Positions 1 through 47,830 of a DNA stretch of 64,000 nt are shown here, piece by piece. The translations under genes and the position numbers were made by a program. Within the stretch, counting starts at the first letter, position 1. Each line of letters begins with the position of its first letter. The notes beneath the pieces are model-generated. The model saw nothing but the letters and a program-made list of their open reading frames with translations. It searched no databases and was not told the DNA's origin. Source of the stretch: Botryococcus braunii (lineage: Eukaryota > Chlorophyta > Trebouxiophyceae); assembly GCA_002005505.1 (NCBI GenBank), contig KV908601.1, positions 63,538-127,537 of the forward strand. Direction: 5' to 3'.

Positions 1-362
1 TCCTTGGGTACGGCACGGCCTGGGCCGGTGGCCTGTCTGGATCACGATCTGCGGGCCCCACAATGCAAGATAACCTCAAGAGATCCGAAAGGATAACGTG
101 AGCAGTATCGGCTCTGCGTCACATTTCTGTATAATACAATTGTACCAAGTTAGCCCTAGATTGAATCGTGTGGTCTTGTGGATAAGCGTGCGCCTGCAGG
201 AGAAGTTCCTGATGAACCCTTCACGGTGTCGGTACTCAGGTAAGACGCACTGATGAATTTACATCGGAATCAAGCGAAAAGTTGTTCAATAAGAGGAAAT
301 CAAACCCCAAAAACCCACAAACCCCCCCCCCCCCCCCCACCTCTAGCCCTAGAAAGTGAAGA
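1..362. other. Outer arm sequence without a recognised gene
   Basis: Mirrors 47244-47591. It holds the 3' flank of the endonuclease-type LINE end at 363-1435, with a poly-C run near 327-341 that differs in length from the mirrored poly-G run near 47269. The words around 284-306 (TTCAATAAGAGGAAATCAAA) recur near 52736, perhaps a remnant of the same element's 3' tail. I see no coding signal. Confidence 0.5.
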
Positions 363-1435
363 CTACCCGCCACAAGGGAGGCGCGTTGCCAGCTGCTGCC
401 CAACCGCCCGCGCTATCACGAAACTAACCCTCCGCTGTAGTGAGAACCACACAAAATCCTCATGGGCAACCGCAGCCTGGTTTACGAGGCCCGGAAGCCT
501 CGACAGAAGCTCCTCTGCCGCCGCCCCCAACCCTCCAAGAGTTTCAAAGGAGAAAGGACGGAAGATCACCCGAGGCGGCTGCCTGACTAAGACCTCCCGG
601 TACGACGCAAGCTTGCCAGCGGCAGCCCGCGCAGCAGCTCCACCAGGCACAAACCCGGCGCCCCCGCTTGCCCCGTCCTACGGCCACGGGGGCGCCGTTG
701 GTACTTTCCCGCGCGCGCGCGCGGGGGCGCAAGCTTAAGCGGGGAAGTACCGACGACATCGATGTAAAGATCCCGCCCACCCTCCCAATCCTGAAACATT
801 AAGTCAGGCCGACGGGCCTCGAACACCGGCACCCGTAGGAGCAAGGAAGGCTCACGGACCACCACAGCCTCAACCTCCTTCCCCACCCGGAACAGTATAT
901 TCTCTAACAGCATTGTGGCGATACGTATTTGCCACTCCTCGACCCACACGGCATTGAATGGCATGGCCCCCCATCGGTCCATGCACATACCACAACGAGG
1001 GCACGGGGTACCAGCCTGGAACATAGGAATCAACAGCTGATAACGTAGCCGGCACCGAAATTCTATATTGGACATGATCTGGCCCATCCGCTCTACTGGG
1101 AGCGCCTGAAGCCACTCCGAAGCATGGGGCCGGTCAGCGGATTCAAGCACTTCAACGACCCTCTCCTGAGCAGGCAACGCAAACAGGGCCTGCTGGCGCA
1201 TAGTTGAAAGAGGCAGGCCCAACTTGTGCTGCGCATCTGACTCAAGGAAAGCGTCGTCCACACCCTGCCACTCGAATTGTGGGCAAACCTCCCAAAACAC
1301 GACCCTGGCCTCCTCCCAAGATCGGGGGAAGGGAACCCCCCCACCCTGCTAAAATCTCATCCTGAACGCACTGGGTCTGGAGAACCGACGCAAGAAACGC
1401 CACAGGGACAATGTCAAACGCCACAGGGACAATGT
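363..1435 (-). pseudogene. C-terminal end of a LINE with restriction-like endonuclease, copy 2, left arm
   Basis: The minus-strand reading resembles the last part of the ORF at 2085-3959: a YQLLIP block, a damaged zinc motif (CPRCGMC then degenerate), an RRPDLMF...GRDLYIDVVG block typical of PD-(D/E)XK-like endonuclease domains, and a C-terminal FSFETLGGL...VNQA...VGQQLA block. The reading shifts frame near 1335 and again inside the run of GCGCGCGC near 712-722, so no protein can be made. It abuts a LINE fragment at 1441. Two near-identical copies of CGCCACAGGGACAATGT lie at the junction (1398 and 1419). Confidence 0.7.
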
Positions 1436-1440
1436 ACTCA

Positions 1441-2025
1441 TGTGCGGTGGTTTGCGCGCCCCACTAAGGCTCAGCGCTCCCGCCTCCTTTATCTGTCTCT
1501 TGATGTTGCCAAGGTCCGGCTCTTTCTCAGGTTTCGTCTTGGTGTTCATGGCCTCCCCTTTGACATGGGCCGCAGACAACGGCTTCCGCGCCTTCAGCGC
1601 CTGTGTGATATGGTGTGGCTCCTCTGTGGGTGATGAACACCACATTGTCTTTCACTGTCCCGCTCTTACTGCGGTGCGGGACCGTTATCCCCACTTGTTT
1701 GTGGGTCCTTCTAGATCTCTTCGGCAGTTCATTTGGCACGCTGACTTGCGTGCCGTCGTCTCCTTTATCTCGGATGCATTCCAGGCTCGTGCTGATTTAC
1801 GCCGGCTACGGTGACTTGGCCGCAGCCACGTCTGTGGCTGCCCCCCCCCCCCCTTATCCCCCCTTCCTTCCCCTTTTCGTTTGCTCAGTTATGCTTTCGC
1901 TCTTCGCTTGGCCACTTCTTGTGGTCAGTTCTTCCTAGTTTTGGCTTGTGTGTGTGTGTGTTGTGGACATCTCATCATGCCCTCGTGGCTGGACAGATGT
2001 AACTTCTTCTTCTGTTACAAGAGTG
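1441..2025 (+). pseudogene. LINE 3' end, group 2 (copy 1, left arm)
   Basis: Translation gives the C-terminus of an L1-like [16 protein letters not shown], then a zf-RVT-like zinc motif (C..C, GDEHH..FHCP), then an RDRYPHLF...[12 protein letters not shown] block ending at the stop at 1812-1814. A frameshift near 1612 splits the zinc motif between frames. The short 3' UTR ends in GGCTGGACAGATGTAACTTC followed by TTC-rich tail. The 5' part (endonuclease and RT) is missing, as expected from truncated target-primed reverse transcription. The mirrored copy is 45584-46168. Confidence 0.75.
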
Positions 2026-2084
2026 GAGTAAAGAAGACCAGCCCAATGTTCAGGGACCCAAACCCCAATGTTTCAAGCAATGAG

Positions 2085-3959
2085 TCACACCCGGCGAGCG
2101 GCCAGCTGGCGACCCACAGCCGCCGCAATGATGAAACTGACCAGACGAATGACAAAATATCCCTCCACATCTTCTTGAGCAATGATGGCTTGGTTCAAAA
2201 GCCCCTGGAGACTCTGCAACAAGGCCAGCGCATCAGCATGCAACCCTCCCAATGTTTCAAAAGCGAAGGCTTGGAAAGCCACAGGCGGCTGCTGACGCGA
2301 CAACAAGACAGCATAGCGGGTCTGCTTGTCTTGGGCAGCGCGCGTGGCGGCCCCACCCGGCACGAAGTGCTGCAAGTTGGCAACTGTGAGTGGGGAAGAG
2401 CCAACGATGTCGATATAAAGGTCACGCCCCTCCTCCCACGCATGGAGGCGGAGGTCTGCGCGACTGCGCTCCTGGCCAGGGACAGGGGTGGGAAAGGCGG
2501 GTTCCGGGGTGACCCGCTGACGAGCTGAGGTAAGGACAGCGTCCAGGCCGTTACGAACGGAGTAATGTCGGCCGACAAGGGCAACATTCTCCCCTGAGGT
2601 GCAGTGGACCGCGTGGTCGCCCCAGACATCCAACTCCCTCAAGCAGCACGGGCATTGGGAGCCAGGGTGGAAAATGGGGATCAAGAGCTGGTATTGAATG
2701 CGGCAGCGGAACGACTCAGGAGGCATGGTCTGCTGCAAATGGGGAACTGGGAGATCCAGCAGCCAATCAGACGCTCCCGGCTGTGTAAAAGATTGGAGCA
2801 CAGCACGGTCGCGATCCGAGGGAGCAGGGTCATCAAGAACCTCCCGGTATGCGCGGTGAGACAAGGGTTTGGACAGCCGGGCTTGCACTTTGCTGCGGAC
2901 AAAATCCGGATCCTCGAAGAGCGCCGCATCGAAATCAGGAACAAGGGCGCAGTAGTCAGCCTTGGCAGCTAGGGCAGCGGGGACAAGAGGGGCAGTGGAT
3001 GTCCCCAGAAGGCGGTCCTGAAGGGGGGCGGTCTGCGTGACGGAGGCGAGATAGGCATAAGGCAGAAGGGAAGTGGCCTTAGTGACCCCTAGACCCCCCT
3101 GGGCAATAGGCAAGCCAGCCAAGGTTTGCTGCAAAGGGCCAAAACCACCACCACCAGCTGTGACAATGGATTCGAGGACCTGGGTTTGGAGCATATCAAA
3201 GGTCACCAAAGCTTGCGCAGCTGCAGCTGGCGGCATGGTCCGAGCTGTGAAAACCACCTTGCAGGTCCCAAGGCAACTGCGAAGCAAGAGAAGCTCGGCT
3301 TGGGGGTTGCGGAGAATCGGCAAACGCTGGAGCGAGGCTGCCACGGCATCAACGTGCGCCTGGGCTACGGAAGCCGCGTACTCGACTGACACGGTGACCG
3401 CTGCCCCCAACACAATCAAACCAGCACGAGTTTCATTGACGAAGCCCAGAGGGAACCCATCCAAATGCTGAGGGTTCGGGCGCGGCGACCACACACGGCA
3501 CTTGTGAGGGTTGAGGCTCAAGCCATATGCGGGGGCCCAGTCAACAACCAACTGGACTGCCTGCTGTGCTGCGGGCACGGGACCAACAAACGTGCCGTCA
3601 TCCAGATACCACCCTTGGTGTACGTCGGGACACTCCCGATGAAGGTCTTCTTCCTTCGCCCTAGTAATCCCCAAACCCCCGCTCGACAACGGCAGGGAAG
3701 CAATGTCCTCTTGTAGGGGCCCAAAGCCTCCCTCCTCCCCCACAACGATTCTTCTAAGACCGGAGTGAAGCCCGTCATCGAAGACAGCCACCCCTACATC
3801 AACAGCCCGAGGGGGAGAGCATCTGAGCACATACACCATCCTACATAACCCCATACACGCCCGTAGCAGCAGGAGCTCTACTTGAGGATCATCTAGAACT
3901 GAAAGCCGATCCATCGTTCTAACCACCTCGACGCCCTTAGTACCCACAAAAGCTGACAC
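2085..3959 (-). CDS. Non-LTR retroelement ORF: partial RT palm and thumb, zinc motif, restriction-like endonuclease (left arm)
   Basis: An open 624-codon frame. Residues about 1-113 repeat the post-palm region of a related element (PQVELLLLRACMGLC, GGFGPLQ). Residue 118 starts YLDD, the RT active-site motif, followed by LSLNPHKC. A second, better-matching post-palm block follows (PQAELLLLRSCLGTC, GGFGPLQ). Near residue 436 is a CPCC...GDHAVHC zinc motif, then D502 and D517 in a RADLR...GRDLYIDIVG block like PD-(D/E)XK endonucleases of R2/CRE-type non-LTR elements. RT motifs 1-4 (fingers) are absent, so the ORF is open but cannot encode a full RT. The mirror is 43651-45525 with one residue change. 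Confidence 0.75.
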   Translation of the reverse strand: MSAFVGTKGVEVVRTMDRLSVLDDPQVELLLLRACMGLCRMVYVLRCSPPRAVDVGVAVFDDGLHSGLRRIVVGEEGGFGPLQEDIASLPLSSGGLGITRAKEEDLHRECPDVHQGWYLDDGTFVGPVPAAQQAVQLVVDWAPAYGLSLNPHKCRVWSPRPNPQHLDGFPLGFVNETRAGLIVLGAAVTVSVEYAASVAQAHVDAVAASLQRLPILRNPQAELLLLRSCLGTCKVVFTARTMPPAAAAQALVTFDMLQTQVLESIVTAGGGGFGPLQQTLAGLPIAQGGLGVTKATSLLPYAYLASVTQTAPLQDRLLGTSTAPLVPAALAAKADYCALVPDFDAALFEDPDFVRSKVQARLSKPLSHRAYREVLDDPAPSDRDRAVLQSFTQPGASDWLLDLPVPHLQQTMPPESFRCRIQYQLLIPIFHPGSQCPCCLRELDVWGDHAVHCTSGENVALVGRHYSVRNGLDAVLTSARQRVTPEPAFPTPVPGQERSRADLRLHAWEEGRDLYIDIVGSSPLTVANLQHFVPGGAATRAAQDKQTRYAVLLSRQQPPVAFQAFAFETLGGLHADALALLQSLQGLLNQAIIAQEDVEGYFVIRLVSFIIAAAVGRQLAARRV

Positions 3960-4052
3960 AAAGACACGAGAAGCCGACAGAGGACCCCCTAATAGCCGAA
4001 CACCTAAGTCCCGACATGGATATCAGCTGGAAAACCCTCTTTAGGACGAGGA

Positions 4053-6040
4053 TCATAGGTGGGCCACCATAAGAGATTCTGGGTCAGGAACAGCCGTCTG
4101 GGTTGGGAACTGGGGCGGCAGTTCCGTTGCGTGCAGGTCACGGACGGGACTAGGGCCGGGAACAGCACTTTGCAGACTCAGCGTTGGAATGAACTTATCT
4201 TTATGAATTACTGATAATGGCGCCGTCTCTGTGGCGCTCGATGCTTCCCGTGAGTGTCTGTCCGGTGCCGGCTCGGTGTCCGCTGCTGCACGGGCGCGGG
4301 CCCGTGTCATAGCAGCCAGGGTGTGTTCCTGGACTTGCTGTAAAAGATTTGAGCACCTTGACAATGGATCAGCAATATTGCAATATCAGCATTAATGTTC
4401 GTGTGCCCGGGTTCATATTTCCAAGTGAAATGAAGTCTTGAAGGGTTTCATACCATCTGGCGTGCCTCCTACTAAGCACAGGTGTGCTTTGGAAGAATGT
4501 GTTTGGGTGATGATCTGTAATAATTATTAATCCCTCACAACCTTCCAAACAATGTTTCCATGTTTTCAACGCATAAATTGTGGCACAGAGCTCTTATTCA
4601 GACACATAATAATTTAGTTCAGCACTATAAAATCTCTTGGACAGATAGGCAAGTGGTTTACTTTTTTGCATTAAGACAGCTCCCATCCCATATCCCGATG
4701 CATCAGTAACTAACGTATAAGGAAGGGAGGGATCAGGCGCCTGAAGTACTGGCGCTTCTGTGAGTGCTGCCAGAAGCCCTTCAAACCCCTCTTGGCATGC
4801 TGCTGTCCACTTGAAGGAGACGTCCTTCTTGGTGAGGTGAATCAGTGGCAATGCCAGTGCTGTAAATCCCTGCAAAAAACGCCTGAAAAAGGCTCTAACG
4901 TCAGACAATGACGTTGGGGGTAGCCCAAGCTTGCACTGCAGCCACTTTGGCTGGGTCAAGTTTGATCCCCTCTGGCCCCACATAAAACCCCAAAAACAGT
5001 GTCCATGTCTCCATGAAGGAACATTGTGACAGTTTCAGATGAAATCGATTGTCCCGCAATAGCTGCATGACAAGTTTCAGGTGTTGCACGTGCTCCTCTT
5101 TAGTTTTACTGTAAATCATGATATCATCTAAAAATATCACTCCAAACTTGTGCAAGTACCTAGCAAATACCTTATTCATTGCAGTTTGAAAAGTCGCAGG
5201 AGCGTTTGAAAGTCCGAATGGTAAGACTTTAAACTAGAGCTGTCCCATGTGTGTTTTGAAAGATGTTTTTGGGATATCCTGATCAGAAATTCTAAGTTGA
5301 TGATACCCACTATGTAAATCTAAAGACGTGAAATACTTAGCACCCGCAAGTTCATCAAATGTTTCATCTAAGCGGGGGATAGGAGCATTGTTTTTGATTG
5401 TCGCAGCGTTCAACCTGATATAATCAAGAACCATTCTTAAACAACCATATTTCTTTTCGACAAGTAATACAGGTGCAGAAAATGGGTTTATACTCTCCTC
5501 AATTAGCCCCAAAGCCAACAGCTGCCCAATTTGTGCTTCAATCGCTTGCCTCTCCTTTGGAGAGTGTCGTGACAAGTAGCAAGATTTTTTTGGGATCGTT
5601 GGGTCCAAATCAATTACATGTTGCGTCCCTCTGTATGGAGGTAACCCTGCAGGTAAACTCTCAGGAAACAAGTCCTGATACTCAGTCAGTAACTCGGCAA
5701 CCAAGGGGTTAGCCGATGCAAGCCTTTGATTCAAGTCTGCAGAACTATTTAATTTCAATGAACACAACACGGCATGGAGCGTCTGATTTGAATATAATTG
5801 TTCTTCAACAGCTTGATAGTCTACTTTGGTTTTTTCAATGCTTAATGAAAACGAACCATCCATGAAGTCGAGTTTGGCTCCCATAGTTCTCAACCATTCT
5901 CTTCCTAAATACAAAACATCCCTCGGTAGATCAGCAACAACAAATTGAACTTTTAAATTATGCCCATTAAGCGTGAAAGGGCACTGATATATGCCATAAA
6001 GTTTTGCCACGTGGTCTCTGTCGGGCATCGATGATATCAC
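4053..6040 (-). pseudogene. Decayed Ty3/gypsy pol fragment (protease end, RT, RNase H), uninterrupted by copia
   Basis: On the minus strand, 6040-5234 covers a protease C-terminus (VLYLGREWL), a connector and the RT start (SAPVLLVEKK, FTSLDLHSGYHQLRI). A TAG at 5232-5234 interrupts just before the PFGL block; RT then continues with FLDD. A frameshift near 4906 leads to RNase H (VTDASGYGMGAVL), a TAA follows YVSE, and a further shift precedes the EPGHTNINAD block. 4053-4364 may be the linker towards integrase; integrase itself is missing. FLDD and the lack of extra domains set it apart from the gypsy element at 8914-23062. The GTTGC at 5083-5087 is the empty site of the right-arm copia insertion. 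Confidence 0.85.
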
Positions 6041-7745
6041 TCCACTCCATTTTGCATTCCTGGACCTCTCTAAAGCTTATGACAGGGTATCGCGTCTTAA
6101 GTTAGGGCACATTTTTGAGCAGTTGGGAATCCAAGGGGATTTTCTTTATGCTACTCAAGCTGTAATATACAGTACAGTTTTGGCGATCAAGATTGAGGGC
6201 AAACATGGGGGTTGTTTGAATCAAGTGCAGGTGTTCCTCAAGGGTGCCCCATTAGCCCTACACTATTTGGAATTATGTCGGATGGACTCCCCCGATATCT
6301 TGCACACCATTGTCCCACGGCTGGCCTCAAGCTACCTGATGGCACACGTTTAAATAAAATACGCATCCAAGTGCTAGGTTTTGCCGACGATTTTGTTCTC
6401 GTCGCGCGTACAGTTGAGGACCTACAGGTGTTGGTGAATGCTACTCAAGAATGGTGTAAGAGTATGGACATGCGCCTAAATGGCGCCAAGACGCAATACC
6501 TTTCAGTAAATCCAGGCCCTCGGACACTCTCTACCTCTCTAGAGGTTGCAGGGGTTAGAATTGGTCCGGTACAGGAGGTTAAATACCTTGGATTACAGAT
6601 TCATGCCAAGAATGGCCTTCAAGCCGGCATCAAGAACCTCGAGCAGAGGTTCTGGATAGCATGGGAAGACCTTACTAGAGCTTATAGCAATATCGGTTGC
6701 AACATGTCAATGATGCTCATGACAGAACTGTACTTAGCTTGCCTACCACCCCTCATCTCCTATGGATGCGAAGTCTGGGCATTCATATGCTTTCAAGGCA
6801 GACAATTGTCTTCGGGAAAACCTAGTAGTATACCTCTATTGGATGCGCACAAGCGGGTCCTAGCTCAGATTTTGGGGGTGCGTCGGACAATCCCTGAGGA
6901 AAAAATCAATTGTGAATCAAACATATTCTCTTTGTGGTCAACTTGACTTGACTTGGTCTCTTTGTGGTCTTACGTACGGTCAGGTTTTGGAACAATACAG
7001 CGGTCATGAGACCTGATTCATTACACTACAAGGTCCTCATGCATGACATGAGGTTGGCAATAGTAGAAGGCCGAGAAACGTTTTCGGGTACCCTTATGCA
7101 ACAACTTAAGAAACTAGGATACTATATAGCTGACCATGTGCGATTTGATAGAGCCTTGCAGATTGACATTTCACAGGTAAAGGATCTGCTAGACCGTAAA
7201 AGTGACATGATATGGGATGACCTAGACATCTCCCCTCGCACTTGTGCATCCCCAAGAGCCTTATTCTGCAGACACCAAAGGTGGTTCGCATCTCCGCCTC
7301 ATGTGCCACGGCCTAAGAGTGCGCTCAAACTCCAGCTTCCCAATGGTACACTGCGGACCTTTCTGCGATTTAGATTAGGGTGTCATGACCTTCCTATTGA
7401 TAAAGGTGGACAACAAGGCATCCCTCGAGACCAGACGATTTGCACGAGGTGCTCCTTAGAGCTCGTTGGTGATGAACATAATCTGTTGTTCACTTGTCCG
7501 GCTGTACAACATGTACGGCGGTATATTATGCATCTCCTTCAAAAAAGGAGTCGATCTGTACAGACGTTTGTGTGGCAAGAAGACCTTGAAGGGGTTGCCA
7601 AATTTGTGACTAGAGCACTGGAGAGCTACCTCACTCTCCCAGGTGCTGTGTGACCTTAGTTGGCTAGATATGGGTCATTCATTGTACTGCCGTCCTCTTC
7701 AGCCCTAGTGGCTGGTCTTTGGATGTATACTTCCTTTCCTTTCTG
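6041..7745 (+). pseudogene. LINE B2, group 3, 5'-truncated RT and C-terminus (left arm)
   Basis: Begins inside the RT with LHFAFLDLSKAYDR, continues through FADDFVLV (the RT active site, about 6380-6403) and the thumb, then a C-terminal domain with LQLPNGTLRTFLRFRLGCHDLP and a CTRCSLELVGDEHNLLFTC zinc motif. The stop is at 7651-7653. One G is missing near 6212 relative to the right-arm mirror, causing a frameshift. A short repeat (CTCTTTGTGGTC) near 6928 and 6957 adds a second break. The 3' UTR ends in TGGCTGGTCTTTGGATGTATACTTCC plus a pyrimidine tail. The mirror is about 33500-35208. Confidence 0.8.
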
Positions 7746-7965
7746 TCGGTGGCAATTATAATGAATTAATCTCCCTTTGATCACATTACTATTGTGAAGG
7801 GAGACTGGGGTCCACTGATTAGAGACTGAGCTCAATCAATTGACTTGGATGATAGGCCTAGATTTGAACCTTAATCCAAAAGTGGACGTTAACGCGTATA
7901 TTAAATTGGTCGGCTAAGTCTGGTTTATGGCTTCGTCGACCGGGGCAGCAGGTCAGACATTAACT

Positions 7966-8043
7966 GGAGTATTCTCCAAGCAAGCTTGCTATGTGTCTCA
8001 CCTGCGCATACTTATGTTCGGCATGCGTTCGTAACTGCGTTGA
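7966..8043. repeat. 78-bp direct repeat, copy 1 of 2 (second at 8354-8431)
   Basis: Both copies start GGAGTATTCTCCAAGCAAGC and end in CTGCGTTGA with a few mismatches. They bracket the minisatellite and the 65-bp repeat in the gap between LINE B2 and LINE B1. Confidence 0.8.
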
Positions 8044-8105
8044 GAACTTTGCGGCATGCGTTCGTAACCGCGTTGAGAACTTTGCGGCATGCGTTCGTAA
8101 CCGCA
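8021..8105 (+). repeat. 33-bp minisatellite, about 2.6 units
   Basis: Units begin at 8021, 8054 and 8087 with GCATGCGTTCGTAAC and end GAACTTTGCG; the third is partial. The mirrored copy is 33143-33228. Units are contiguous without spacers. Confidence 0.85.
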
Positions 8106-8511
8106 TGCCCATTAAATCGGTAAGCCCCGACCAGTGGGAAGCGTGTATCACTTCGCCTTTAATCAGTTGTTAGGCCAAAGCATTGATAATTAGTACTGGT
8201 ACAGGTGATTGTGATTATGTCATTCGACATCTATCATCTGTGAATGGTAACAACATCGGCTTTGGGTTTCAGGTAAGAGTAGTTAAGTGGTGCACGTTTA
8301 GTTCATATCTTTATGTGCACGTCTAGATTCATTTCCTTGTAACAGACATTCAAGGAGTATTCTCCAAGCAAGCTTGCTATGTGTCTCACCTGCGCATACT
8401 TATGTTCGGAATGCGTTTGCAACTGCGTTGAAGTAAGGAAGATTACATCCAAAGACCAGCCACTAGGGCTGACGAGGACGGCAGTACAATGAATGACCCC
8501 TATCTAGCCAA

Positions 8512-29905: not shown

Positions 29906-29926
29906 AGGGGCTAACCGAGGGGAGAC

Positions 29927-30256: not shown

Positions 30257-30290
30257 ATGATGGATGTCGAATGACATAATCACAATCACC
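30226..30290. repeat. 65-bp repeat flanking LINE B1, right arm (other copy 32983-33044)
   Basis: Reverse complement of 25134-25198; the copy beyond LINE B1 lies at 32983-33044. Both sides also carry GATTTAAAGGGCATG / GATTTAATGGGCATG nearby (30293 and 33131). Confidence 0.75.
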
Positions 30291-30304
30291 GATTTAAAGG
30301 GCAT

Positions 30305-36532: not shown

Positions 36533-36552
36533 CTTCCCCTTGCCTGCATGCT

Positions 36553-39500
36553 TTAAGTGTATCTTCTCAAACCTAGTGAATCACGATGACCAACAAACAC
36601 GGGCTTGGCAAGTGGCTTGGTCATAATGTCAGCCACATTGCGAGCAGATTCCACATAGAGGATATCTACCTGCCCAAGTGCCATAGCTTCCCTAGCGTAG
36701 TGGAAGCTTACTGCAACGTGCTTTGTGAATTTGGAATACAGGGGTTTCCGTAAATTAGAAATGCATCCTTGGTTGTCACAGAAAATTTTGACCCTCCAAG
36801 GTGCAGCCCCTATCTCTTCCAAGAAGCCCCTTAGCCAGTTGGCTTCCTTCACAATATGGCCAGCTGCCATAAACTCAGCTTGCACAGTTGAGGTAGCAAC
36901 TGAGCTCTGCTTCTTGCTTCCCCAAACCACGGCACTACCATAGACTGATAGAACATAGCCAGTGGTGGAATACCTGTGGTCCAGGTCCCCAGCATAGTCG
37001 GCATCAACATAGCCTTCTAGCTCAGGGCCCTTTCCACCCAGAGTAAGAGCTAACTCTCTGGTATCTCTCAAGTACTTCAGCACTCGAATGGCCTCATTCC
37101 AGTGTGAGGTAGTGGGTGTCATTCTATACCTTGACAACACTCCAACAGCCTGAGAAATGTCAGGCCGGGTCGTATTGGCTATGTACAGTAACGATCCAAT
37201 TAACTCGCAGTATCGATGACCAGGTGGCAGAGGGGTACCAGCCCCATGTGACATACCATCTGAGGACTCGGGTCTGCTGCTAGCCACGAAGTCCTTGGAC
37301 ATGGGGGTATCAACCCCACGTCCATCATCAGCAACGCCAAACTTCTCCACAAGAGCATCAATCTTGGGAGTGCAACTCATGGAAATAGTGCCCTGAACTC
37401 TATTGCGTAGGACCTGACACCCCAGGAAATCATTCACCTCTCCCAAATCATGGATGGTGAAGTCCTTCTTCAATAACTCTTTCCCCCACTCAATCTCTGC
37501 AACCACTCTGGCAACTATGAGAAGATCATCGACATAAACAAGAATAAACGACAGATTACCATCAGGGGCCCTCCTGATGTATACCCCAGCGTCGCTCTTG
37601 CACACACTATACCCCATCACGCTCAACTTGTCGCTCAAGGTCTTGTGCCAAGCCCGTGGGGCTTGCTTAAGACCGTAGAGTGCCTTCCTGAGCTTGCACA
37701 CAACTCTCGTGTTGCCATTCTCAAATCCTGGTGGTTGGGTCACATAGACCTCTTCCTCCAACTCCCCATTGAGAAAAGCTGTCTTGATATCCACTTGGTG
37801 GATCTCAAGATTTTGTGTGGCAGCCACTGCCAGCACAGCTCTCCTAGCACCATAGCTGCTGGTAGGTGCAAAAACCTCACCAACATCTATACCAGGAATC
37901 TGTCTGCAACCCTGGGCAACCAATCTTGCTTTAAACCGAGTGACATTCCCATGTGCATCGTTTTTTGTAGAAAAAATCCAATGAACAGGGATAACTTTCT
38001 GCCCATGGGGTCTTTCCACATACTGCATAACCTCATGGGTGTCTAAAGACTCCATCTCCTCTTGCATTGCCTGCTGCCAAAACTCCCACTGAGGTGAGCG
38101 CTGGGCTTCCCTCAAGTTTGAGGGCACGTGAACTTTTCCCAACCTGACAGAAGGTACACTCTGTACCTTATGCTGTGGTGCAGCAGGGCTGTCAGCCTTA
38201 CTGGTGCTGTTCCCTTCTCTCTCTCTCTCTCCCTGGTTGCCAGAATAAGGTACATTATGTACCTTATGCTGGGACTGGGCAGTACTGCCGGGATTATCTG
38301 ATTCCTTCTCAAGTCTCTCTCTCTCTCCTTGACTACTGGACTCATGTGCAGCACCCTTACATTCTCGCACCTTCCGCAATGCAGAGGGGAGCAGCAGCTC
38401 TCTCTCTCTCCTGGACTCACACTTGGGCACACTACCCAGACTTGCCTGAGCTGCGCCTACAATGTCAGCCTGCACACCATAAGCATGACTAGCCAGTGAC
38501 TGGGATTGGGCACCAGCTTCCCCTACTGCTGGCATGTCTAACCCACTGCTCTCATCTCTTACATCTGCACCGAACATAGCCTCGACTGTCTCAACCTGCC
38601 CCTGCATATCAGGGAGACCAGCCATGTTTGGCTCACTCACAATTGCCTGACCTGGGTCAGGGGCATGCAATGGGATGTCAGAATGCTCTCTCCTAGCCAC
38701 GCGCTGTACATAACGCTGCTCCCTTGTAAGGGTGGTCCCTGGAGGAAGGGGAATTTGTGACTTCCCCTGCATTCGCAACCCCTCTTGTACCTTCTGCATT
38801 TTTTCTACCTGGGATTGAGTTTCTACACCCCCCCTGGCCAGATTCTGCATATGCTCAAGCACCGACCACGAGTGCTGAGATGGTTCTGGGGTCCCAACAG
38901 TAGAATCCAGGCTGGTGGGGGTTCCTTGGTCATGTGCTGCTATGGTCCCGTCTCCAGACTGATCCCCAGCACAAAGTCCAGAGGTCCCAGGAGCCCCAGT
39001 GGAAAGCGTCTCCACTCCATGGTCATCCTCCTCATCCCAGAACGTGGGTGGAGCAGCAGAGGGAATTGCTTGAGGCGTTGCCAGATTCTCACTGCCAAGG
39101 GGGGGTGATATCCTAGAATCATAGACAGACCCAGGCTGGACCTTTGATAGACCCACTCTCTCAGCCCCCCTCAAGTGCTCGATAAAGCTGACGTCCCTAC
39201 TCTCCTTCCACACTCCATTCCCCACGTACACACGATACGCTTTAGACTGGGGACAATAACCAGTAAACATCCCAGGGATGGTCTTGGGCCCAAAAACAGA
39301 CCTTTGGCCACTGGGAATGTGCACATGGGCTACACAGCCAAACGTGCGCAGCACCGACACATCAGGTTTGACACCAAAGAATAATTCCATGGGGGTCAGG
39401 GACCTGCCTGAAGTAGGACCCACATTGTAGAGGAGGGTAGCTGTCTCGAGCGCCTCCTTCCAAAGGGAAGGGTCTGCTGCAGCATGGACCAACAGAGTCC

Positions 39501-41766
39501 TTGTTCGCTCCTTCAGGGTCCTATTCATCCTCTCCGCCACCCCATTCTGCTGAGGCGTGTAGGGCGCTGAGGACTCCATCTTAGTGCCCTGCTGAGCACA
39601 AAACTCTTTGAATTGCTGGTTCAGGAACTCTGAACCCCTGTCAGTCCTCACACACTTCACAACCGTGCCTCGTTGGGTCTGCCAAAAACGGAGCAGGTCT
39701 ATCACAGCCTTTGGGATGCAATCCTTTGACTTCACAGGCAGGGAGGCAACTTGGTGTGAACTTTCATCCACTACAGTGACCCAATATCGTTCACCTGTGA
39801 TGGCAGGAGGTGATATGGGACCCACAGTATCCACATGGACTCTATCGAGTGGGTGATGTGCAGGCCTGGAAGATACAGGGAAAGGAGGTCTGGAGTGTTT
39901 CCCTTGTATACACGATTCACAGTGCTTGGGGCACTCAGAGCAGGGAGCAAGGGAGATATTGATTCCTGTAACCAGATCTTCCTTGGAGAACCTCTGCATG
40001 CTGCTGGCACCAGGATGACCTAACCTAGCATGCCACAGAGATCTCTCGCTACACACGTGTCCTTTCCTAAGATGAGACGCCTCAGCCATGTGATCAATAT
40101 GTCTGCAGCCAACTTGCTGCCCTCTGACAGGACTAACAAACTCCAAAAAAAACAGACCTCGTGCGCGGGTGATATCTCCACACCACCCTTCAGGTCCCTT
40201 CATGGCTGTGTAACCACCTGCAGTGTCAGTCAGGAAAGATGCTCCATCCTGAATTGCACCAGTGACTGAAATGAGGTTGGTATGCGCAGAAGGAACACAC
40301 TGCACATTGTGCAGCCAGAATACTTCGTGCCTTGCATTCACAAGGCATACAGACCCAGATGCAATGATTCCTCCCTTGGCGTCTGAGGTTGCCAAGTGCA
40401 GAGGAAGAGGCTGTCTATGCATAACTGGATTATGGAGCAATGAGAGATCATTGACTATATGCACAGAGGCACCACTATCTATTAACCAAGATGTGCTGCT
40501 AGCTCCATGCGAAGTTGGGGCAAGCACATTGAGAGAGATAAACATCGCCTCACCAGAAGGAGGGGGTGGAGGTGGTAAATGCCACCCCGGAAACGTGTGT
40601 TGACTTGTTGGATAGTTATATGCTGAAGGTGGTCCAGGGCTGGAAGCGGATGAAGGCGGGCCACCCCGGCCAAATCCATGGTCCCACCAGGCTTGAGGAG
40701 ACGACTGTGGGCCTCCCTGGCCCCAGTAAGCTGCAGGCCCAACGCTTGCCGCTTGCATGTTTTGATGCAGAGCCTGCAGCTGCCTGAGCGGTCCGCAGTC
40801 AGTCATGAAGTGGCCCTTTGCCTTGCAGAAGTGGCATGTAAGCTCCTCTCTGGGCCTTCTTGCCCTGCCAGGTCCACGCCCCCTGCCACCAAAAGTAGTT
40901 GCAGAGGGGCCAGCGGGAGGCTGTTCGTTTGCTGGTAGTGCTGCTCCAACTCCCGGTACTGCTCCCACTCCTGGTGCAGCTCCAGCGCTTGATGACGCTC
41001 CAGCTACCCCCCCAGAGGGACCAGCCACTGCTGCAGCTGCCATGGCCTGAGGTGTTCCCTCTGCAGGTGGGTCCTTGTACCCACGGCTGGCTGCGGCGCG
41101 CAGGATTCTTTGAATCAGCTCCAATGGCGGCTTGTCGGTTGCCATAACCTCCAGGGACTCGAGCCTCAGCACAGGAGGGAGGCCCTTCACCATCAGCTCC
41201 CCAACATTGTGGTCCAAGAGGATGAACGCGTTGTTTCTGAGACTTGTAGCCAGATCCATCATTCTGTAGAGGTAGACCTTGAGTGTCTCCCCTGTCTTGA
41301 TGCCCTGCTCCATTTCCTTGTACCACTCAAGGTTGATGTCTTGGTTGCTCCCTCCAGTATGACTGTTCTTCACCCACGTGATGAAGTCGAACGCTGCTTT
41401 GTGGCATGAGATCTGAGAATGCCAGATGACTGGAACTGACTGGATCAGCCACTGCTTGATGGCTGAGTTCTCCACCGACCCTGGCATTGGCCTCTCCAAA
41501 GCCGCTCTGACCCCCTTGGTGTTTGCGCACGCCTCCAAAGCTTCATACCAAAATTCAAAATTGCGCCCTCCATCATCAAGCATGACAGTCATCTTTGGAT
41601 TAGAGGTATTGGGGATGTAGGCTGCCTTGTCAATCTCCACCTTTGGTTCTGCAGTGGCTGATTGTGTCCCGGTCATAGACTGCCCTGGAGTGGCCCCACT
41701 GACTTCTCCAGGTTGAGACATTGCTGTTTCACTGCTACTTTCCTTTTCTTTGCCCCTTTTTGTCAT
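36553..41766 (-). CDS. Copia Gag-Pol polyprotein, 1737 residues, intact
   Basis: Residues about 40-240 are a UBN2-type Gag (WYKEMEQGIKTGETLKVYLY, HNVGELMVKGLPP). A CCHC knuckle CHFCKAKGHFMTDC lies near 310. D430-SGA is the protease motif. A gag-pre-integrase block follows (LWHARLGHPG), then integrase with HVDTVGP, RTDRGSEF and PQQNGVAERMNR for the D, D, E triad. A long low-complexity, Arg/Glu/Ser-rich linker precedes RT (VHWIFSTKND, VDIKTAFLNGELEEEVY, YVDD at 1411). RNase H has GYVDADYAGD, and the C-terminus ends in RNVADIMTKPL. The order integrase before RT is Ty1/copia. Start is the first ATG after the leader; no stop or frameshift. Confidence 0.95.
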   Translation of the reverse strand: MTKRGKEKESSSETAMSQPGEVSGATPGQSMTGTQSATAEPKVEIDKAAYIPNTSNPKMTVMLDDGGRNFEFWYEALEACANTKGVRAALERPMPGSVENSAIKQWLIQSVPVIWHSQISCHKAAFDFITWVKNSHTGGSNQDINLEWYKEMEQGIKTGETLKVYLYRMMDLATSLRNNAFILLDHNVGELMVKGLPPVLRLESLEVMATDKPPLELIQRILRAAASRGYKDPPAEGTPQAMAAAAVAGPSGGVAGASSSAGAAPGVGAVPGVGAALPANEQPPAGPSATTFGGRGRGPGRARRPREELTCHFCKAKGHFMTDCGPLRQLQALHQNMQAASVGPAAYWGQGGPQSSPQAWWDHGFGRGGPPSSASSPGPPSAYNYPTSQHTFPGWHLPPPPPPSGEAMFISLNVLAPTSHGASSTSWLIDSGASVHIVNDLSLLHNPVMHRQPLPLHLATSDAKGGIIASGSVCLVNARHEVFWLHNVQCVPSAHTNLISVTGAIQDGASFLTDTAGGYTAMKGPEGWCGDITRARGLFFLEFVSPVRGQQVGCRHIDHMAEASHLRKGHVCSERSLWHARLGHPGASSMQRFSKEDLVTGINISLAPCSECPKHCESCIQGKHSRPPFPVSSRPAHHPLDRVHVDTVGPISPPAITGERYWVTVVDESSHQVASLPVKSKDCIPKAVIDLLRFWQTQRGTVVKCVRTDRGSEFLNQQFKEFCAQQGTKMESSAPYTPQQNGVAERMNRTLKERTRTLLVHAAADPSLWKEALETATLLYNVGPTSGRSLTPMELFFGVKPDVSVLRTFGCVAHVHIPSGQRSVFGPKTIPGMFTGYCPQSKAYRVYVGNGVWKESRDVSFIEHLRGAERVGLSKVQPGSVYDSRISPPLGSENLATPQAIPSAAPPTFWDEEDDHGVETLSTGAPGTSGLCAGDQSGDGTIAAHDQGTPTSLDSTVGTPEPSQHSWSVLEHMQNLARGGVETQSQVEKMQKVQEGLRMQGKSQIPLPPGTTLTREQRYVQRVARREHSDIPLHAPDPGQAIVSEPNMAGLPDMQGQVETVEAMFGADVRDESSGLDMPAVGEAGAQSQSLASHAYGVQADIVGAAQASLGSVPKCESRRERELLLPSALRKVRECKGAAHESSSQGERERLEKESDNPGSTAQSQHKVHNVPYSGNQGEREREGNSTSKADSPAAPQHKVQSVPSVRLGKVHVPSNLREAQRSPQWEFWQQAMQEEMESLDTHEVMQYVERPHGQKVIPVHWIFSTKNDAHGNVTRFKARLVAQGCRQIPGIDVGEVFAPTSSYGARRAVLAVAATQNLEIHQVDIKTAFLNGELEEEVYVTQPPGFENGNTRVVCKLRKALYGLKQAPRAWHKTLSDKLSVMGYSVCKSDAGVYIRRAPDGNLSFILVYVDDLLIVARVVAEIEWGKELLKKDFTIHDLGEVNDFLGCQVLRNRVQGTISMSCTPKIDALVEKFGVADDGRGVDTPMSKDFVASSRPESSDGMSHGAGTPLPPGHRYCELIGSLLYIANTTRPDISQAVGVLSRYRMTPTTSHWNEAIRVLKYLRDTRELALTLGGKGPELEGYVDADYAGDLDHRYSTTGYVLSVYGSAVVWGSKKQSSVATSTVQAEFMAAGHIVKEANWLRGFLEEIGAAPWRVKIFCDNQGCISNLRKPLYSKFTKHVAVSFHYAREAMALGQVDILYVESARNVADIMTKPLAKPVFVGHRDSLGLRRYT

Positions 41767-42156
41767 ACTATTGTCACTTCACCAGCCAAACTTACTCATA
41801 AACTTCTGGAATGCAGCAATACCCTACAATTCCCTCCATGTCATGGAAATTTACCAGCCAGTCTTGCACAGTAGTAGCAGATATGTTCCCCTCAGAAGTT
41901 TGCGCCGGAGTCCGGCCCGACTCACTCAGTGCTTCTAGACAACGTCTATGAATGATAAAGCACAGCTAAAACTTCAATTATGAATTTCCCAGAAAGGTAA
42001 ACTGTGAGTAAGATAATGGTCCTGGTACACTCGAGTTCCCTTGCGCCGCTGCGCCATGCTCGAGCTCCTTTGTTGACGCTTACGTCTGACCCATCCGTAG
42101 ACGACCTTCACTCCTGCTTTTACTTGGCTCAGCTGGAAGGGCGTGGGCCCATAACC

Positions 42157-42522
42157 TGTGAAAGGTTATGGGCAATCGGCCTTCCCTGTACAAAGCAGAC
42201 AGGTCGTCAATAGACGAAGTTACTCCAGCTACAGTCCGTACGACTGTCTGCTGAGTGCCACACACAACTGTCGGACAAGACTAGCATCTGGTGATGCCCA
42301 GCATCTTTCACAACCAGTTGGTATTCACTCCGGTGGGGCAGCCTTAAGAGTTCATCCGACAAACGTGTGATCTAGATAGGATTGTACCTTATGTTCGAAA
42401 ACGTCCAGAATCTGCCGTGTCTCAAGGTACCTTATGTTCTCAATGGACCCATATCCTAATAGTGCACACATGAAGATCACTTAAAGCACAAGGCATTCAA
42501 TAATAATGTTCAGAACTCAACA
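42157..42522 (-). repeat. Copia 5' LTR
   Basis: Matches 36167-36532 except one base. At its inner edge the bases 42147-42157 and 42163-42173 form an 11-bp perfect inverted repeat (GCCCATAACCT / AGGTTATGGGC, loop 5) that spans the LTR end and the presumed primer-binding site. The leader 41767-42156 is noncoding. Confidence 0.95.
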
Positions 42523-43557
42523 GCAACACCTGAAACTTGTCATGCAGCTATTGCGGGACAATCGATTTCATCTGAAACTGTCACAATGTTCCTTCATGGA
42601 GACATGGACACTGTTTTTGGGGTTTTATGTGGGGCCAGAGGGGATCAAACTTGACCCAGCCAAAGTGGCTGCAGTGCAAGCTTGGGCTACCCCCAACGTC
42701 ATTGTCTGACGTTAGAGCCTTTTTCAGGCGTTTTTTGCAGGGATTTACAGCACTGGCATTGCCACTGATTCACCTCACCAAGAAGGACGTCTCCTTCAAG
42801 TGGACAGCAGCATGCCAAGAGGGGTTTGAAGGGCTTCTGGCAGCACTCACAGAAGCGCCAGTACTTCAGGCGCCTGATCCCTCCCTTCCTTATACGTTAG
42901 TTACTGATGCATCGGGATATGGGATGGGAGCTGTCTTAATGCAAAAAAGTAAACCACTTGCCTATCTGTCCAAGAGATTTTATAGTGCTGAACTAAATTA
43001 TTATGTGTCTGAATAAGAGCTCTGTGCCACAATTTATGCGTTGAAAACATGGAAACATTGTTTGGAAGGTTGTGAGGGATTAATAATTATTACAGATCAT
43101 CACCCAAACACATTCTTCCAAAGCACACCTGTGCTTAGTAGGAGGCACGCCAGATGGTATGAAACCCTTCAAGACTTCATTTCACTTGGAAATATGAACC
43201 CGGGCACACGAACATTAATGCTGATATTGCAATATTGCTGATCCATTGTCAAGGTGCTCAAATCTTTTACAGCAAGTCCAGGAACACACCCTGGCTGCTA
43301 TGACACGGGCCCGCGCCCGTGCAGCAGCGGACACCGAGCCGGCACCGGACAGACACTCACGGGAAGCATCGAGCGCCACAGAGACGGCGCCATTATCAGT
43401 AATTCATAAAGATAAGTTCATTCCAACGCTGAGTCTGCAAAGTGCTGTTCCCGGCCCTAGTCCCGTCCGTGACCTGCACGCAACGGAACTGCCGCCCCAG
43501 TTCCCAACCCAGACGGCTGTTCCTGACCCAGAATCTCTTATGGTGGCCCACCTATGA
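42523..43557 (+). pseudogene. Decayed gypsy pol fragment, second part (RT end, RNase H, linker; right arm)
   Basis: Resumes directly after the copia target duplication: HLKLVMQLLRDNRFHLKLSQ and FLGFYVGPEGIKLDPAKV, a frameshift near 42705, then RNase H VTDASGYGMGAVL, a TAA at 43014-43016, TDHHPN and a shifted EPGHTNINAD block. A further open stretch to 43557 (LAAMTRARARAA) may be the linker towards integrase, which is lost. Stops and shifts are shared with the left arm, so decay predates the palindrome. Confidence 0.83.
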
Positions 43558-43650
43558 TCCTCGTCCTAAAGAGGGTTTTCCAGCTGATATCCATGTCGGG
43601 ACTTAGGTGTTCGGCTATTAGGGGGTCCTCTGTCGGCTTCTCGTGTCTTT
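43558..43650. other. Short junction between gypsy fragment and endonuclease-type LINE
   Basis: No recognised coding or regulatory signal. The open frame of the next ORF extends slightly upstream of its first ATG. Mirror 3960-4052. Confidence 0.5.
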
Positions 43651-45525
43651 GTGTCAGCTTTTGTGGGTACTAAGGGCGTCGAGGTGGTTAGAACGATGGA
43701 TCGGCTTTCAGTTCTAGATGATCCTCAAGTAGAGCTCCTGCTGCTACGGGCGTGTATGGGGTTATGTAGGATGGTGTATGTGCTCAGATGCTCTCCCCCT
43801 CGGGCTGTTGATGTAGGGGTGGCTGTCTTCGATGACGGGCTTCACTCCGGTCTTAGAAGAATCGTTGTGGGGGAGGAGGGAGGCTTTGGGCCCCTACAAG
43901 AGGACATTGCTTCCCTGCCGTTGTCGAGCGGGGGTTTGGGGATTACTAGGGCGAAGGAAGAAGACCTTCATCGGGAGTGTCCCGACGTACACCAAGGGTG
44001 GTATCTGGATGACGGCACGTTTGTTGGTCCCGTGCCCGCAGCACAGCAGGCAGTCCAGTTGGTTGTTGACTGGGCCCCCGCATATGGCTTGAGCCTCAAC
44101 CCTCACAAGTGCCGTGTGTGGTCGCCGCGCCCGAACCCTCAGCATTTGGATGGGTTCCCTCTGGGCTTCGTCAATGAAACTCGTGCTGGTTTGATTGTGT
44201 TGGGGGCAGCGGTCACCGTGTCAGTCGAGTACGCGGCTTCCGTAGCCCAGGCGCACGTTGATGCCGTGGCAGCCTCGCTCCAGCGTTTGCCGATTCTCCG
44301 CAACCCCCAAGCCGAGCTTCTCTTGCTTCGCAGTTGCCTTGGGACCTGCAAGGTGGTTTTCACAGCTCGGACCATGCCGCCAGCTGCAGCTGCGCAAGCT
44401 TTGGTGACCTTTGATATGCTCCAAACCCAGGTCCTCCAATCCATTGTCACAGCTGGTGGTGGTGGTTTTGGCCCTTTGCAGCAAACCTTGGCTGGCTTGC
44501 CTATTGCCCAGGGGGGTCTAGGGGTCACTAAGGCCACTTCCCTTCTGCCTTATGCCTATCTCGCCTCCGTCACGCAGACCGCCCCCCTTCAGGACCGCCT
44601 TCTGGGGACATCCACTGCCCCTCTTGTCCCCGCTGCCCTAGCTGCCAAGGCTGACTACTGCGCCCTTGTTCCTGATTTCGATGCGGCGCTCTTCGAGGAT
44701 CCGGATTTTGTCCGCAGCAAAGTGCAAGCCCGGCTGTCCAAACCCTTGTCTCACCGCGCATACCGGGAGGTTCTTGATGACCCTGCTCCCTCGGATCGCG
44801 ACCGTGCTGTGCTCCAATCTTTTACACAGCCGGGAGCGTCTGATTGGCTGCTGGATCTCCCAGTTCCCCATTTGCAGCAGACCATGCCTCCTGAGTCGTT
44901 CCGCTGCCGCATTCAATACCAGCTCTTGATCCCCATTTTCCACCCTGGCTCCCAATGCCCGTGCTGCTTGAGGGAGTTGGATGTCTGGGGCGACCACGCG
45001 GTCCACTGCACCTCAGGGGAGAATGTTGCCCTTGTCGGCCGACATTACTCCGTTCGTAACGGCCTGGACGCTGTCCTTACCTCAGCTCGTCAGCGGGTCA
45101 CCCCGGAACCCGCCTTTCCCACCCCTGTCCCTGGCCAGGAGCGCAGTCGCGCAGACCTCCGCCTCCATGCGTGGGAGGAGGGGCGTGACCTTTATATCGA
45201 CATCGTTGGCTCTTCCCCACTCACAGTTGCCAACTTGCAGCACTTCGTGCCGGGTGGGGCCGCCACGCGCGCTGCCCAAGACAAGCAGACCCGCTATGCT
45301 GTCTTGTTGTCGCGTCAGCAGCCGCCTGTGGCTTTCCAAGCCTTCGCTTTTGAAACATTGGGAGGGTTGCATGCTGATGCGCTGGCCTTGTTGCAGAGTC
45401 TCCAGGGGCTTTTGAACCAAGCCATCATTGCTCAAGAAGATGTGGAGGGATATTTTGTCATTCGTCTGGTCAGTTTCATCATTGCGGCGGCTGTGGGTCG
45501 CCAGCTGGCCGCTCGCCGGGTGTGA
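43651..45525 (+). CDS. Non-LTR retroelement ORF with restriction-like endonuclease (right arm)
   Basis: Mirror of 2085-3959; one residue differs (Q instead of E in QTQVLQSIV). Y118-LDD lies at 44002-44013, the CPCC zinc motif at about 44956, and the RADLR...GRDLYIDIVG endonuclease block at about 45145-45210. Two copies of a post-palm block flank the YLDD segment, indicating a chimera of two related elements or internal loss of the fingers. Retention of a long open frame in both arms is notable, although an RT without its N-terminal motifs should be inactive. Confidence 0.75.
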   Translation: MSAFVGTKGVEVVRTMDRLSVLDDPQVELLLLRACMGLCRMVYVLRCSPPRAVDVGVAVFDDGLHSGLRRIVVGEEGGFGPLQEDIASLPLSSGGLGITRAKEEDLHRECPDVHQGWYLDDGTFVGPVPAAQQAVQLVVDWAPAYGLSLNPHKCRVWSPRPNPQHLDGFPLGFVNETRAGLIVLGAAVTVSVEYAASVAQAHVDAVAASLQRLPILRNPQAELLLLRSCLGTCKVVFTARTMPPAAAAQALVTFDMLQTQVLQSIVTAGGGGFGPLQQTLAGLPIAQGGLGVTKATSLLPYAYLASVTQTAPLQDRLLGTSTAPLVPAALAAKADYCALVPDFDAALFEDPDFVRSKVQARLSKPLSHRAYREVLDDPAPSDRDRAVLQSFTQPGASDWLLDLPVPHLQQTMPPESFRCRIQYQLLIPIFHPGSQCPCCLRELDVWGDHAVHCTSGENVALVGRHYSVRNGLDAVLTSARQRVTPEPAFPTPVPGQERSRADLRLHAWEEGRDLYIDIVGSSPLTVANLQHFVPGGAATRAAQDKQTRYAVLLSRQQPPVAFQAFAFETLGGLHADALALLQSLQGLLNQAIIAQEDVEGYFVIRLVSFIIAAAVGRQLAARRV

Positions 45526-45583
45526 CTCATTGCTTGAAACATTGGGGTTTGGGTCCCTGAACATTGGGCTGGTCTTCTTTACT

Positions 45584-46168
45584 CCACTCTTGTAACAGAA
45601 GAAGAAGTTACATCTGTCCAGCCACGAGGGCATGATGAGATGTCCACAACACACACACACACACAAGCCAAAACTAGGAAGAACTGACCACAAGAAGTGG
45701 CCAAGCGAAGAGCGAAAGCATAACTGAGCAAACGAAAAGGGGAAGGAAGGGGGGATAAGGGGGGGGGGCAGCCACAGACGTGGCTGCGGCCAAGTCACCG
45801 TAGCCGGCGTAAATCAGCACGAGCCTGGAATGCATCCGAGATAAAGGAGACGACGGCACGCAAGTCAGCGTGCCAAATGAACTGCCGAAGAGATCTAGAA
45901 GGACCCACAAACAAGTGGGGATAACGGTCCCGCACCGCAGTAAGAGCGGGACAGTGAAAGACAATGTGGTGTTCATCACCCACAGAGGAGCCACACCATA
46001 TCACACAGGCGCTGAAGGCGCGGAAGCCGTTGTCTGCGGCCCATGTCAAAGGGGAGGCCATGAACACCAAGACGAAACCTGAGAAAGAGCCGGACCTTGG
46101 CAACATCAAGAGACAGATAAAGGAGGCGGGAGCGCTGAGCCTTAGTGGGGCGCGCAAACCACCGCACA
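45584..46168 (-). pseudogene. LINE 3' end, group 2 (copy 1, right arm)
   Basis: Mirror of 1441-2025: C-terminal [13 protein letters not shown], frameshifted zinc motif, [10 protein letters not shown] block, stop at 45795-45797. The 3' UTR ends near 45584 with the complement of GATGTAACTTCTTCTTC. Confidence 0.75.
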
Positions 46169-46184
46169 TGAGTACATTGTCCCT

Positions 46185-47243
46185 GTGGCGTTTGACATTG
46201 TCCCTGTGGCGTTTCTTGCGTCGGTTCTCCAGACCCAGTGCGTTCAGGATGAGATTTTAGCAGTGTGGGGGGTTCCCTTCCCCCGATCTTGGGAGGAGGC
46301 CAGGGTCGTGTTTTGGGAGGTTTGCCCACAATTCGAGTGGCAGGGTGTGGACGACGCTTTCCTTGAGTCAGATGCGCAGCACAAGTTGGGCCTGCCTCTT
46401 TCAACTATGCGCCAGCAGGCCCTGTTTGCGTTGCCTGCTCAGGAGAGGGTCGTTGAAGTGCTTGAATCCGCTGACCGGCCCCATGCTTCGGAGTGGCTTC
46501 AGGCGCTCCCAGTAGAGCGGATGGGCCAGATCATGTCCAATATAGAATTTCGGTGCCGGCTACGTTATCAGCTGTTGATTCCTATGTTCCAGGCTGGTAC
46601 CCCGTGCCCTCGTTGTGGTATGTGCATGGACCGATGGGGGGCCATGCCATTCAATGCCGTGTGGGTCGAGGAGTGGCAAATACGTATCGCCACAATGCTG
46701 TTAGAGAATATACTGTTCCGGGTGGGGAAGGAGGTTGAGGCTGTGGTGGTCCGTGAGCCTTCCTTGCTCCTACGGGTGCCGGTGTTCGAGGCCCGTCGGC
46801 CTGACTTAATGTTTCAGGATTGGGAGGGTGGGCGGGATCTTTACATCGATGTCGTCGGTACTTCCCTGCTTAAGCTTGCGCCCCCGCGCGCGCGCGCGGG
46901 AAAGTACCGACGGCGCCCCCGTGGCCGTAGGACGGGGCAAGCGGGGGCGCCGGGTTTGTGCCTGGTGGAGCTGCTGCGCGGGCTGCCGCTGGCAAGCTTG
47001 CGTCGTACCGGGAGGTCTTAGTCAGGCAGCCGCCTCGGGTGATCTTCCGTCCTTTCTCCTTTGAAACTCTTGGAGGGTTGGGGGCGGCGGCAGAGTAGCT
47101 TCTGTCGAGGCTTCCGGGCCTGGTAAACCAGGCTGCGGTTGCCCATGAGGATTTTGTGTGGTTCTCACTACAGCGGAGGGTTAGTTTCGTGATAGCGCGG
47201 GCGGTTGGGCAGCAGCTGGCAACGCGCCTCCCTTGTGGCGGGT
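46185..47243 (+). pseudogene. C-terminal end of endonuclease-type LINE, copy 2 (right arm)
   Basis: The frame 46185-47021 is longer here than on the left because the G-run shift near 1335 is absent. Shows SNIEFRCRLRYQLLIP, a degenerate zinc region and RRPDLMFQDWEGGRDLYIDV, then loses frame in the GCGCGC tract near 46886-46898. The C-terminal FSFETLGGL block follows in another frame with a TAG at 47096 where the left arm has GAG. Related to but distinct from the ORF at 43651. Confidence 0.7.
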
Positions 47244-47830
47244 AGTCTTCACTTTCTAGGGCTAGAGGTGGGGGGGGGGTTTGTGGGTTTGATTTCCTCT
47301 TATTGAACAACTTTTCGCTTGATTCCGATGTAAATTCATCAGTGCGTCTTACCTGAGTACCGACACCGTGAAGGGTTCATCAGGAACTTCTCCTGCAGGC
47401 GCACGCTTATCCACAAGACCATACGATTCAATCTAGGGCTAACTTGGTACAATTGTATTATACAGAAATGTGACGCAGAGCCGATACTGCTCACGTTATC
47501 CTTTCGGATCTCTTGAGGTTATCTTGCATTGTGGGGCCCGCAGATCGTGATCCAGACAGGCCACCGGCCCAGGCCGTGCCGTACCCAAGGATGGACGGTG
47601 AAGGGACCTTCTGTGGTATGGTGCTGGCCATCAGGGGTTCCACCCAAACTTTCAGTTACAGGTACGGCACTACCACCGCTATAATCGTATATAATAAAAA
47701 ATCCATTACACTGGATGTTGTGGGGGTGATAGGGGGAAAGGGGGGGCTTGGCCAAGCCCCCCTTGGGGGGGGGGGGGGGGGAGGGGGGCAGTTTTTTCAA
47801 TATCGAGATAGACCGGAAGTTTTTTGTTGG
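47244..47830. other. Outer edge of the palindrome and unique flank
   Basis: 47244-47591 mirrors 1-347. Beyond 47591 the mate would lie outside the window. 47591-47830 holds G-rich runs (about 47727-47788, one of the longest near 47766-47780). No gene seen. Confidence 0.5.

Follow-up and report, generated by a model that had tools for sequence, protein, structure and literature searches.

A 13.4-kb inverted repeat centred on head-to-head, degenerate telomere-like arrays in Botryococcus braunii: a candidate relic of chromosome-end fusion

A 64,000-bp stretch of the genome of the green alga Botryococcus braunii (bases 63538-127537 of the 203,454-bp scaffold KV908601.1 in an assembly of 176 Mb and 989 pieces, GCA_002005505.1; hereafter the window) has a GC content of 50% and is free of N. 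A family search for rbcL gave no match, whereas one for PF00494, the phytoene/squalene synthase family, gave 5 on two contigs; the latter and the GC content would fit an alga without being proof of one. Comparison of the window with itself reveals a single large inverted repeat around position 27733, which pairs 1-27732 with 27733-47591 and has two short, degenerate arrays of TTTAGGG-like telomere repeats at its centre (Table 1). Here, we describe this locus and discuss it as a candidate relic of a fusion that joined a chromosome end to a second copy of itself. The alignment of the two arms, which leaves out a gypsy-type insert, a copia-type insert and the central array, covers 13,412 bases with 33 substitutions (0.25%, an identity of 99.75%) and 8 indel events of 1-23 bp, the larger ones being 16 bp at 313-328 and 23 bp at 23246-23268. 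An inverted repeat of 13.4 kb with this degree of identity far exceeds chance expectation. An earlier note on this DNA, prepared by a model from the letters and their open reading frames, had proposed that everything is mirrored to the left window edge; indeed, the left base 1 pairs with the right base 47591, and only the inserts, the substitutions and the small indels break the mirror. Parts of the left outer arm are dispersed repeats, such as a frame of 645 amino acids (aa) at 2085-4022 on the - strand with relatives at dozens of places. For the first 1,647 bp from 27692/27733 outward, the two sides mirror each other without a difference. This run might suggest gene conversion near the centre, yet a second substitution-free stretch of about 2.2 kb sits at 3173-5376, and for this reason we do not claim it.

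Table 1. Arms, central arrays and private insertions of the inverted repeat, with positions in the window. LTR, long terminal repeat; LINE, long interspersed nuclear element.
Feature	Position	Strand	Details
Left arm, outer part	1-8913	+	mirrors 47591-42523 and 36166-32335
Empty copia site of the left arm	5083-5087	-	a single GCAAC, on the - strand
Target-site duplication of the gypsy element, AAGGC	8909-8913 and 23062-23066	+	AAGGC single in the other arm (32335-32339)
Gypsy-type LTR retrotransposon, private to the left arm	8914-23061	+	gag, protease, reverse transcriptase, RNase H, integrase and PHD finger in Pfam
Left arm, inner part	23062-27610	+	carries a LINE-type reverse transcriptase frame, 23501-24610 (-)
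Left telomere-like array	27611-27732	+	122 bp; G-rich strand runs toward the join; perfect units hold 23% of bases and occur at most 2 in a row
Asymmetric spacer	27693-27732	+	40 bp of array, left side only
Join GGGTT/AACCC	27728-27737	no strand	arrays meet between 27732 and 27733
Right telomere-like array	27733-27814	-	82 bp, exact reverse complement of 27611-27692; 26% of bases in perfect units
Right arm, inner part	27815-36166	-	mirrors 27610-23062 and 8913-5083; empty gypsy site 32335-32339
Target-site duplication of the copia element, GCAAC	36162-36166 and 42523-42527	-	5 bp
Copia-type LTR retrotransposon, private to the right arm	36167-42522	-	one open frame of 1741 aa
Right arm, outer part	42523-47591	-	mirrors 5087-1

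The G-rich strands of both central arrays face each other across one join, and their units are variants of the organism's own telomere repeat, TTTAGGG, as would be expected of a fusion site. The earlier note had described degenerate TTTAGGG repeats that meet CCCTAAA repeats in the orientation of fused chromosome ends, with a 40-bp asymmetric spacer, and all three points are confirmed: the arrays stand G-strand tip to G-strand tip with the extents given in Table 1, and the spacer is the part of the left array that the right one lacks. Variant units common to both arrays include TATAGGG, TTTACGG, TTAAGGG and TAAAGGG, among others, and the 40 bp found on the left only are made of the same kind of variant units as the 82-bp shared part. 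The longest exact match to this 82-bp stretch among 11 other arrays of the genome is 22 bp. Because 82 bp match exactly between the two central arrays, compared with 22 bp at most elsewhere, the sequences indicate that the variant units arose before the arms split and that both arrays derive from one. Likewise, both arms share the same junction to TTTAGGG-like repeats in addition to the same run of variants, which indicates that they descend from one sequence. At the edges of the spacer, 0 bp of inverted microhomology were found.

Each arm carries one retrotransposon that the other lacks. The LTR-like repeats of the gypsy-type element (8914-10273 and 21691-23050) differ by 5 substitutions in 1360 positions, the 366-bp LTRs of the copia-type element by 1 substitution, and this divergence is of the same order as that between the arms. 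Since each insert is bounded by a target-site duplication and faces an empty site in the opposite arm, the arms have separate histories and are not two readings of one molecule. A hairpin read with an unsplit adapter is ruled out by the private inserts and by the substitutions between the arms. One relative of the copia frame matches 65% of its length at 99%; among the named relatives, sequences from Closterium and land plants match at 24-37%. Within the gypsy insert, the second LTR-like repeat is followed by 11 extra bases (AAGAATGCCAC, 23051-23061), and the same word occurs immediately before 21691, which makes the true ends of the element odd. The insert also contains a nested LINE-like frame (10233-12773); a segment that starts in this frame, 12459-13733, recurs inverted at 99% in the right flank (49490-50774).

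Outside the mirror, the 2,500 bp left of the window read N in the genome. The 10 kb beyond them (-12,499 to -2,500) gave no match in the right flank, and a comparison of all visible flank sequence, left versus right, yielded four short matches of 45-186 bp. Those 10 kb show no mirroring of the right side, which places the outer end of the mirror no more than 2.5 kb past the left window edge. In the left flank, a 6-kb piece had only short repeat matches and no full-length second copy among the 40 of 2,212 candidates scored; a 6.5-kb piece of the right flank (window 51500-58000) had no full-length second copy among all 16 candidates. The latter piece is part of a repeated cluster whose relatives lie on C119, C3 and C32, the best being 2.5 kb at 98% on C119. 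Long AC/CA microsatellites lie at 50797-51240 and 58072-58188, and similar simple repeats occur in many flank frames. A sister-chromatid fusion followed by breakage would predict arms that were identical at birth and one foreign flank; the arms are 99.75% alike, the flanks are unlike, and either flank could be the original inner neighbour of the arm.

These flanks bear on the alternative offered in the earlier note, in which two haplotypes are joined through their telomeres, and they speak against it. For haplotypes of a single chromosome end, homology should persist inward, and no such homology along both flanks was found. A join through normal telomeres should moreover show some 400 bp of mostly perfect repeats per side, where 122 + 82 bp of degenerate repeats are seen. 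As the flanks do not resemble each other and the pieces of both showed no full-length second copy (for the left piece, among 40 of 2,212 candidates), we do not read the scaffold as two alleles joined end to end, and an allelic join is not our leading explanation.

For comparison, we searched the genome for telomere repeats; the searches give lower bounds. Among 46 matches, at least seven are strong TTTAGGG arrays, and all seven of these are located within 14 bp of a contig end. They measure 417-481 bp (the span taken for the array of contig C324 begins some 35 bp too early); perfect units account for 80-91% of their bases, and the longest perfect runs comprise 12-29 units. In these terminal arrays, perfect units make up 33-83% of the first 84 bp versus 89-97% beyond 122 bp, and the lowest 122-bp window of all seven is 40% perfect. 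The value of 23-26% at the centre of the mirror is near that of the innermost 84 bp of the poorest terminal array (33%), and it falls within the range of the four internal arrays that were fetched (3%, 10%, 30% and 60%).

Several of the ordinary ends adjoin mobile elements. In four of the seven terminal contigs, the array is followed on its inner side, within 0-5 bp, by retrotransposon sequence known from the scaffold, a LINE in C324 and C559 and a copia-type element in C743 and C577, and in each of these four the retrotransposon elsewhere continues past the telomere join. In a fifth, C682, the array adjoins a frame that, judged by eye, resembles a gypsy-type reverse transcriptase; no direct retrotransposon neighbour of the terminal array was found in C389 and C326. 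Telomerase healing of a broken end usually leaves 1-3 shared bases or a few filler bases at the join. By eye, the bases that fit both the element and the telomere repeat are GGG in C559, TAG in C743 and G in C577, and the join in C324 has a few filler bases. The ends of C324 (L041), C559 (L048), C743 (L049), C577 (L045) and C682 (L044) thus look like healed breaks inside retrotransposons.

The arms resemble the terminal contigs in build, with ordinary repeat sequence followed by telomere-like repeats. The stretch 26613-27597, which ends just short of the left array, has one other relative, on C361, at 83%; C361 continues without telomere repeats and has no equivalent of the final bases before the array (about 27598-27610). 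We also performed a genome-wide search for the head-to-head pattern, which returned 8 matches at 7 places, 2 of the matches being the central join itself, and 0 matches in a backwards control. None of the six other places, at each of which 461-481 bp were read, holds long arrays, and each contains only a few units. At one of them, C15:677700-678170 (L059), an 88-bp mini-mirror at 93% combines TTTAGGG and CCCTAAA units with a shared flank.

On the assembled sequence, we lean towards the locus being a relic of a real end-to-end fusion that united two copies of a single worn chromosome end. The sequence shows that the two copies meet G-strand tip to G-strand tip as GGGTT/AACCC, one side being 40 bp longer, and that after their separation they diverged by 0.25%, each gaining its own retrotransposon. 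The array would correspond to the innermost 80-120 bp of a telomere, rich in variant units, left after shortening; having lost its cap, this telomere would have undergone end-joining. The copies may have been sister chromatids, in which case the product would have broken within about 16 kb and been rejoined to unrelated DNA, or they may have been separate chromosome ends with a duplicated subtelomere in common, the situation at human 2q13; both would fit, and we have no preference between them. If the product was dicentric, one centromere would have to be lost or silenced. A fuller account, in which an eroded end fused to its own sister copy in a natural lineage, broke within about 16 kb, was rescued by unrelated DNA and has been inherited for the time needed for two retrotransposon insertions and a divergence of 0.25%, so that the event can be read at base resolution, is a tentative one that we hold to be rather doubtful. 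For the fusion scar itself, we propose no function. The earlier note had suggested an inverted-duplicated subtelomere or a fusion relic; the shared junction and the shared variant units support this suggestion, and the arrays may once have lain at a real chromosome end.

Several observations weigh against an end-to-end fusion. The opposed orientation of the arrays partly follows from the mirror itself, and the outer end of the mirror falls in a stretch that reads N. The arm stretch beside the array was not found in any of the seven terminal contigs, and therefore nothing besides their build marks the arms as subtelomeric. Furthermore, no 122-bp window of the seven terminal arrays is as degenerate as the shared array, whose decay had taken place before the arms split. 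An old internal array would account better for such early decay, which speaks against a young fusion of active telomeres and allows for a duplication of internal sequence.

In such a duplication, no chromosome end would be involved: a break in an old internal telomere-like array would be followed by the joining of sister copies, or by a strand folding back on itself, and then by replication. Since the array was already worn before the arms split, this is a serious rival, although we think it unlikely. The shared variants predate the duplication, the perfection of the centre lies within the range of the internal arrays, and human cases of fold-back inverted duplication with an unduplicated spacer exist (PMC3907307). 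The rival has to assume, however, that the break fell within an array of some 120 bp. Its fold-back variant, in addition, predicts short inverted homology at the edges of the spacer, and the spacer of 40 bp is below the 766-70,466 bp given for the human cases (PMC3907307). The 0-bp inverted match and the 40-bp loop make fold-back replication less likely; a join between two broken sisters inside the array is compatible with 0 bp of inverted homology, so this evidence weighs on the fold-back variant only.

An error of assembly, in which the assembler connected two alleles, or different chromosome ends with a common subtelomere, through the arms and the array when no molecule spans the centre, also seems improbable. 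Mirrored repeats are a classic cause of misjoins, the assembly consists of many pieces, and runs of N in the scaffold (for example, of 571 and 41,074 bp) may be scaffolding gaps. No N occurs inside the window, however, and the arms differ by inserts and substitutions, which an unsplit hairpin read would not produce, while the flanks are not allelic to each other. As the central arrays are short and degenerate in comparison with the seven terminal ones, no normal telomeres met at the centre. That the whole structure is a large mobile fold-back element with telomere-like repeats at its centre, as the dispersed repeats in parts of the arms might suggest, is very hard to credit, because a 1,451-bp stretch beside the centre is complete at the two arms only (next best, 985 bp at 83%; 40 of 105 candidates scored) and long arrays are found at one of the seven head-to-head places.

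Should reads confirm an end-to-end fusion, the arms, the exact join and the later private insertions would be readable in one place. The arms would then serve as a clock, with 33 substitutions and two datable insertions, and the shared variant units would show that both tips came from one sequence. The locus would offer a natural case in which to ask how a lineage can persist after a telomere fusion, within a genome that has at least some telomeres directly on truncated retrotransposons. If the copies were sister chromatids, the fusion, the break and the later inserts would constitute a dated record of one breakage-fusion-bridge cycle, set in a genome where some ordinary ends also resemble healed breaks inside retrotransposons.

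Among the papers listed by a literature search, titles and abstract openings showed no case of this organism or structure, from which we do not claim absence from print. Palindromes near chromosome ends in yeast resemble the end-to-end fusion favoured here in that an inverted duplication of an end is triggered by telomere failure (PMC4981268). There, however, short inverted repeats lie between the arms and the cells are without telomeres, whereas telomere-like repeats lie between the arms here and no inverted match is found at the spacer edges. The human fold-back inverted duplications share with our locus the mirrored arms, the unduplicated spacer and, sometimes, a junction to unrelated DNA; their junctions show 2-8 bp of inverted homology in 13 cases and about 300 bp in three others (PMC3907307), in contrast to the telomere-like spacer without inverted microhomology described above. 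Internal telomere repeats also mark old chromosome fusions in the Indian muntjac, where the repeats all run in one direction beside satellite I and, as the paper reports, head-to-head cases were not encountered (PMC2760882).

Head-to-head arrays are documented in human. The (TTAGGG)n arrays of the 5p subtelomere have been considered a possible fusion relic (PMC2323237); ours belong to another organism and another repeat. Fusion arrays have been described at 2q13-2q14 and 1q41 (PMC6410037), and the former site marks the fusion of two ancestral primate chromosomes. Like the present locus, the site on human chromosome 2 consists of head-to-head degenerate telomere repeats in an internal position, and it is enriched in subtelomeric duplications (PMC6410037, PMC2323237). 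In Botryococcus braunii, by contrast, TTTAGGG-like units make up the arrays, and both arms are copies, in mirror orientation, of a single sequence (99.75% identity). End-to-end fusion sites are already known, and the present locus, if real, would add a new case.

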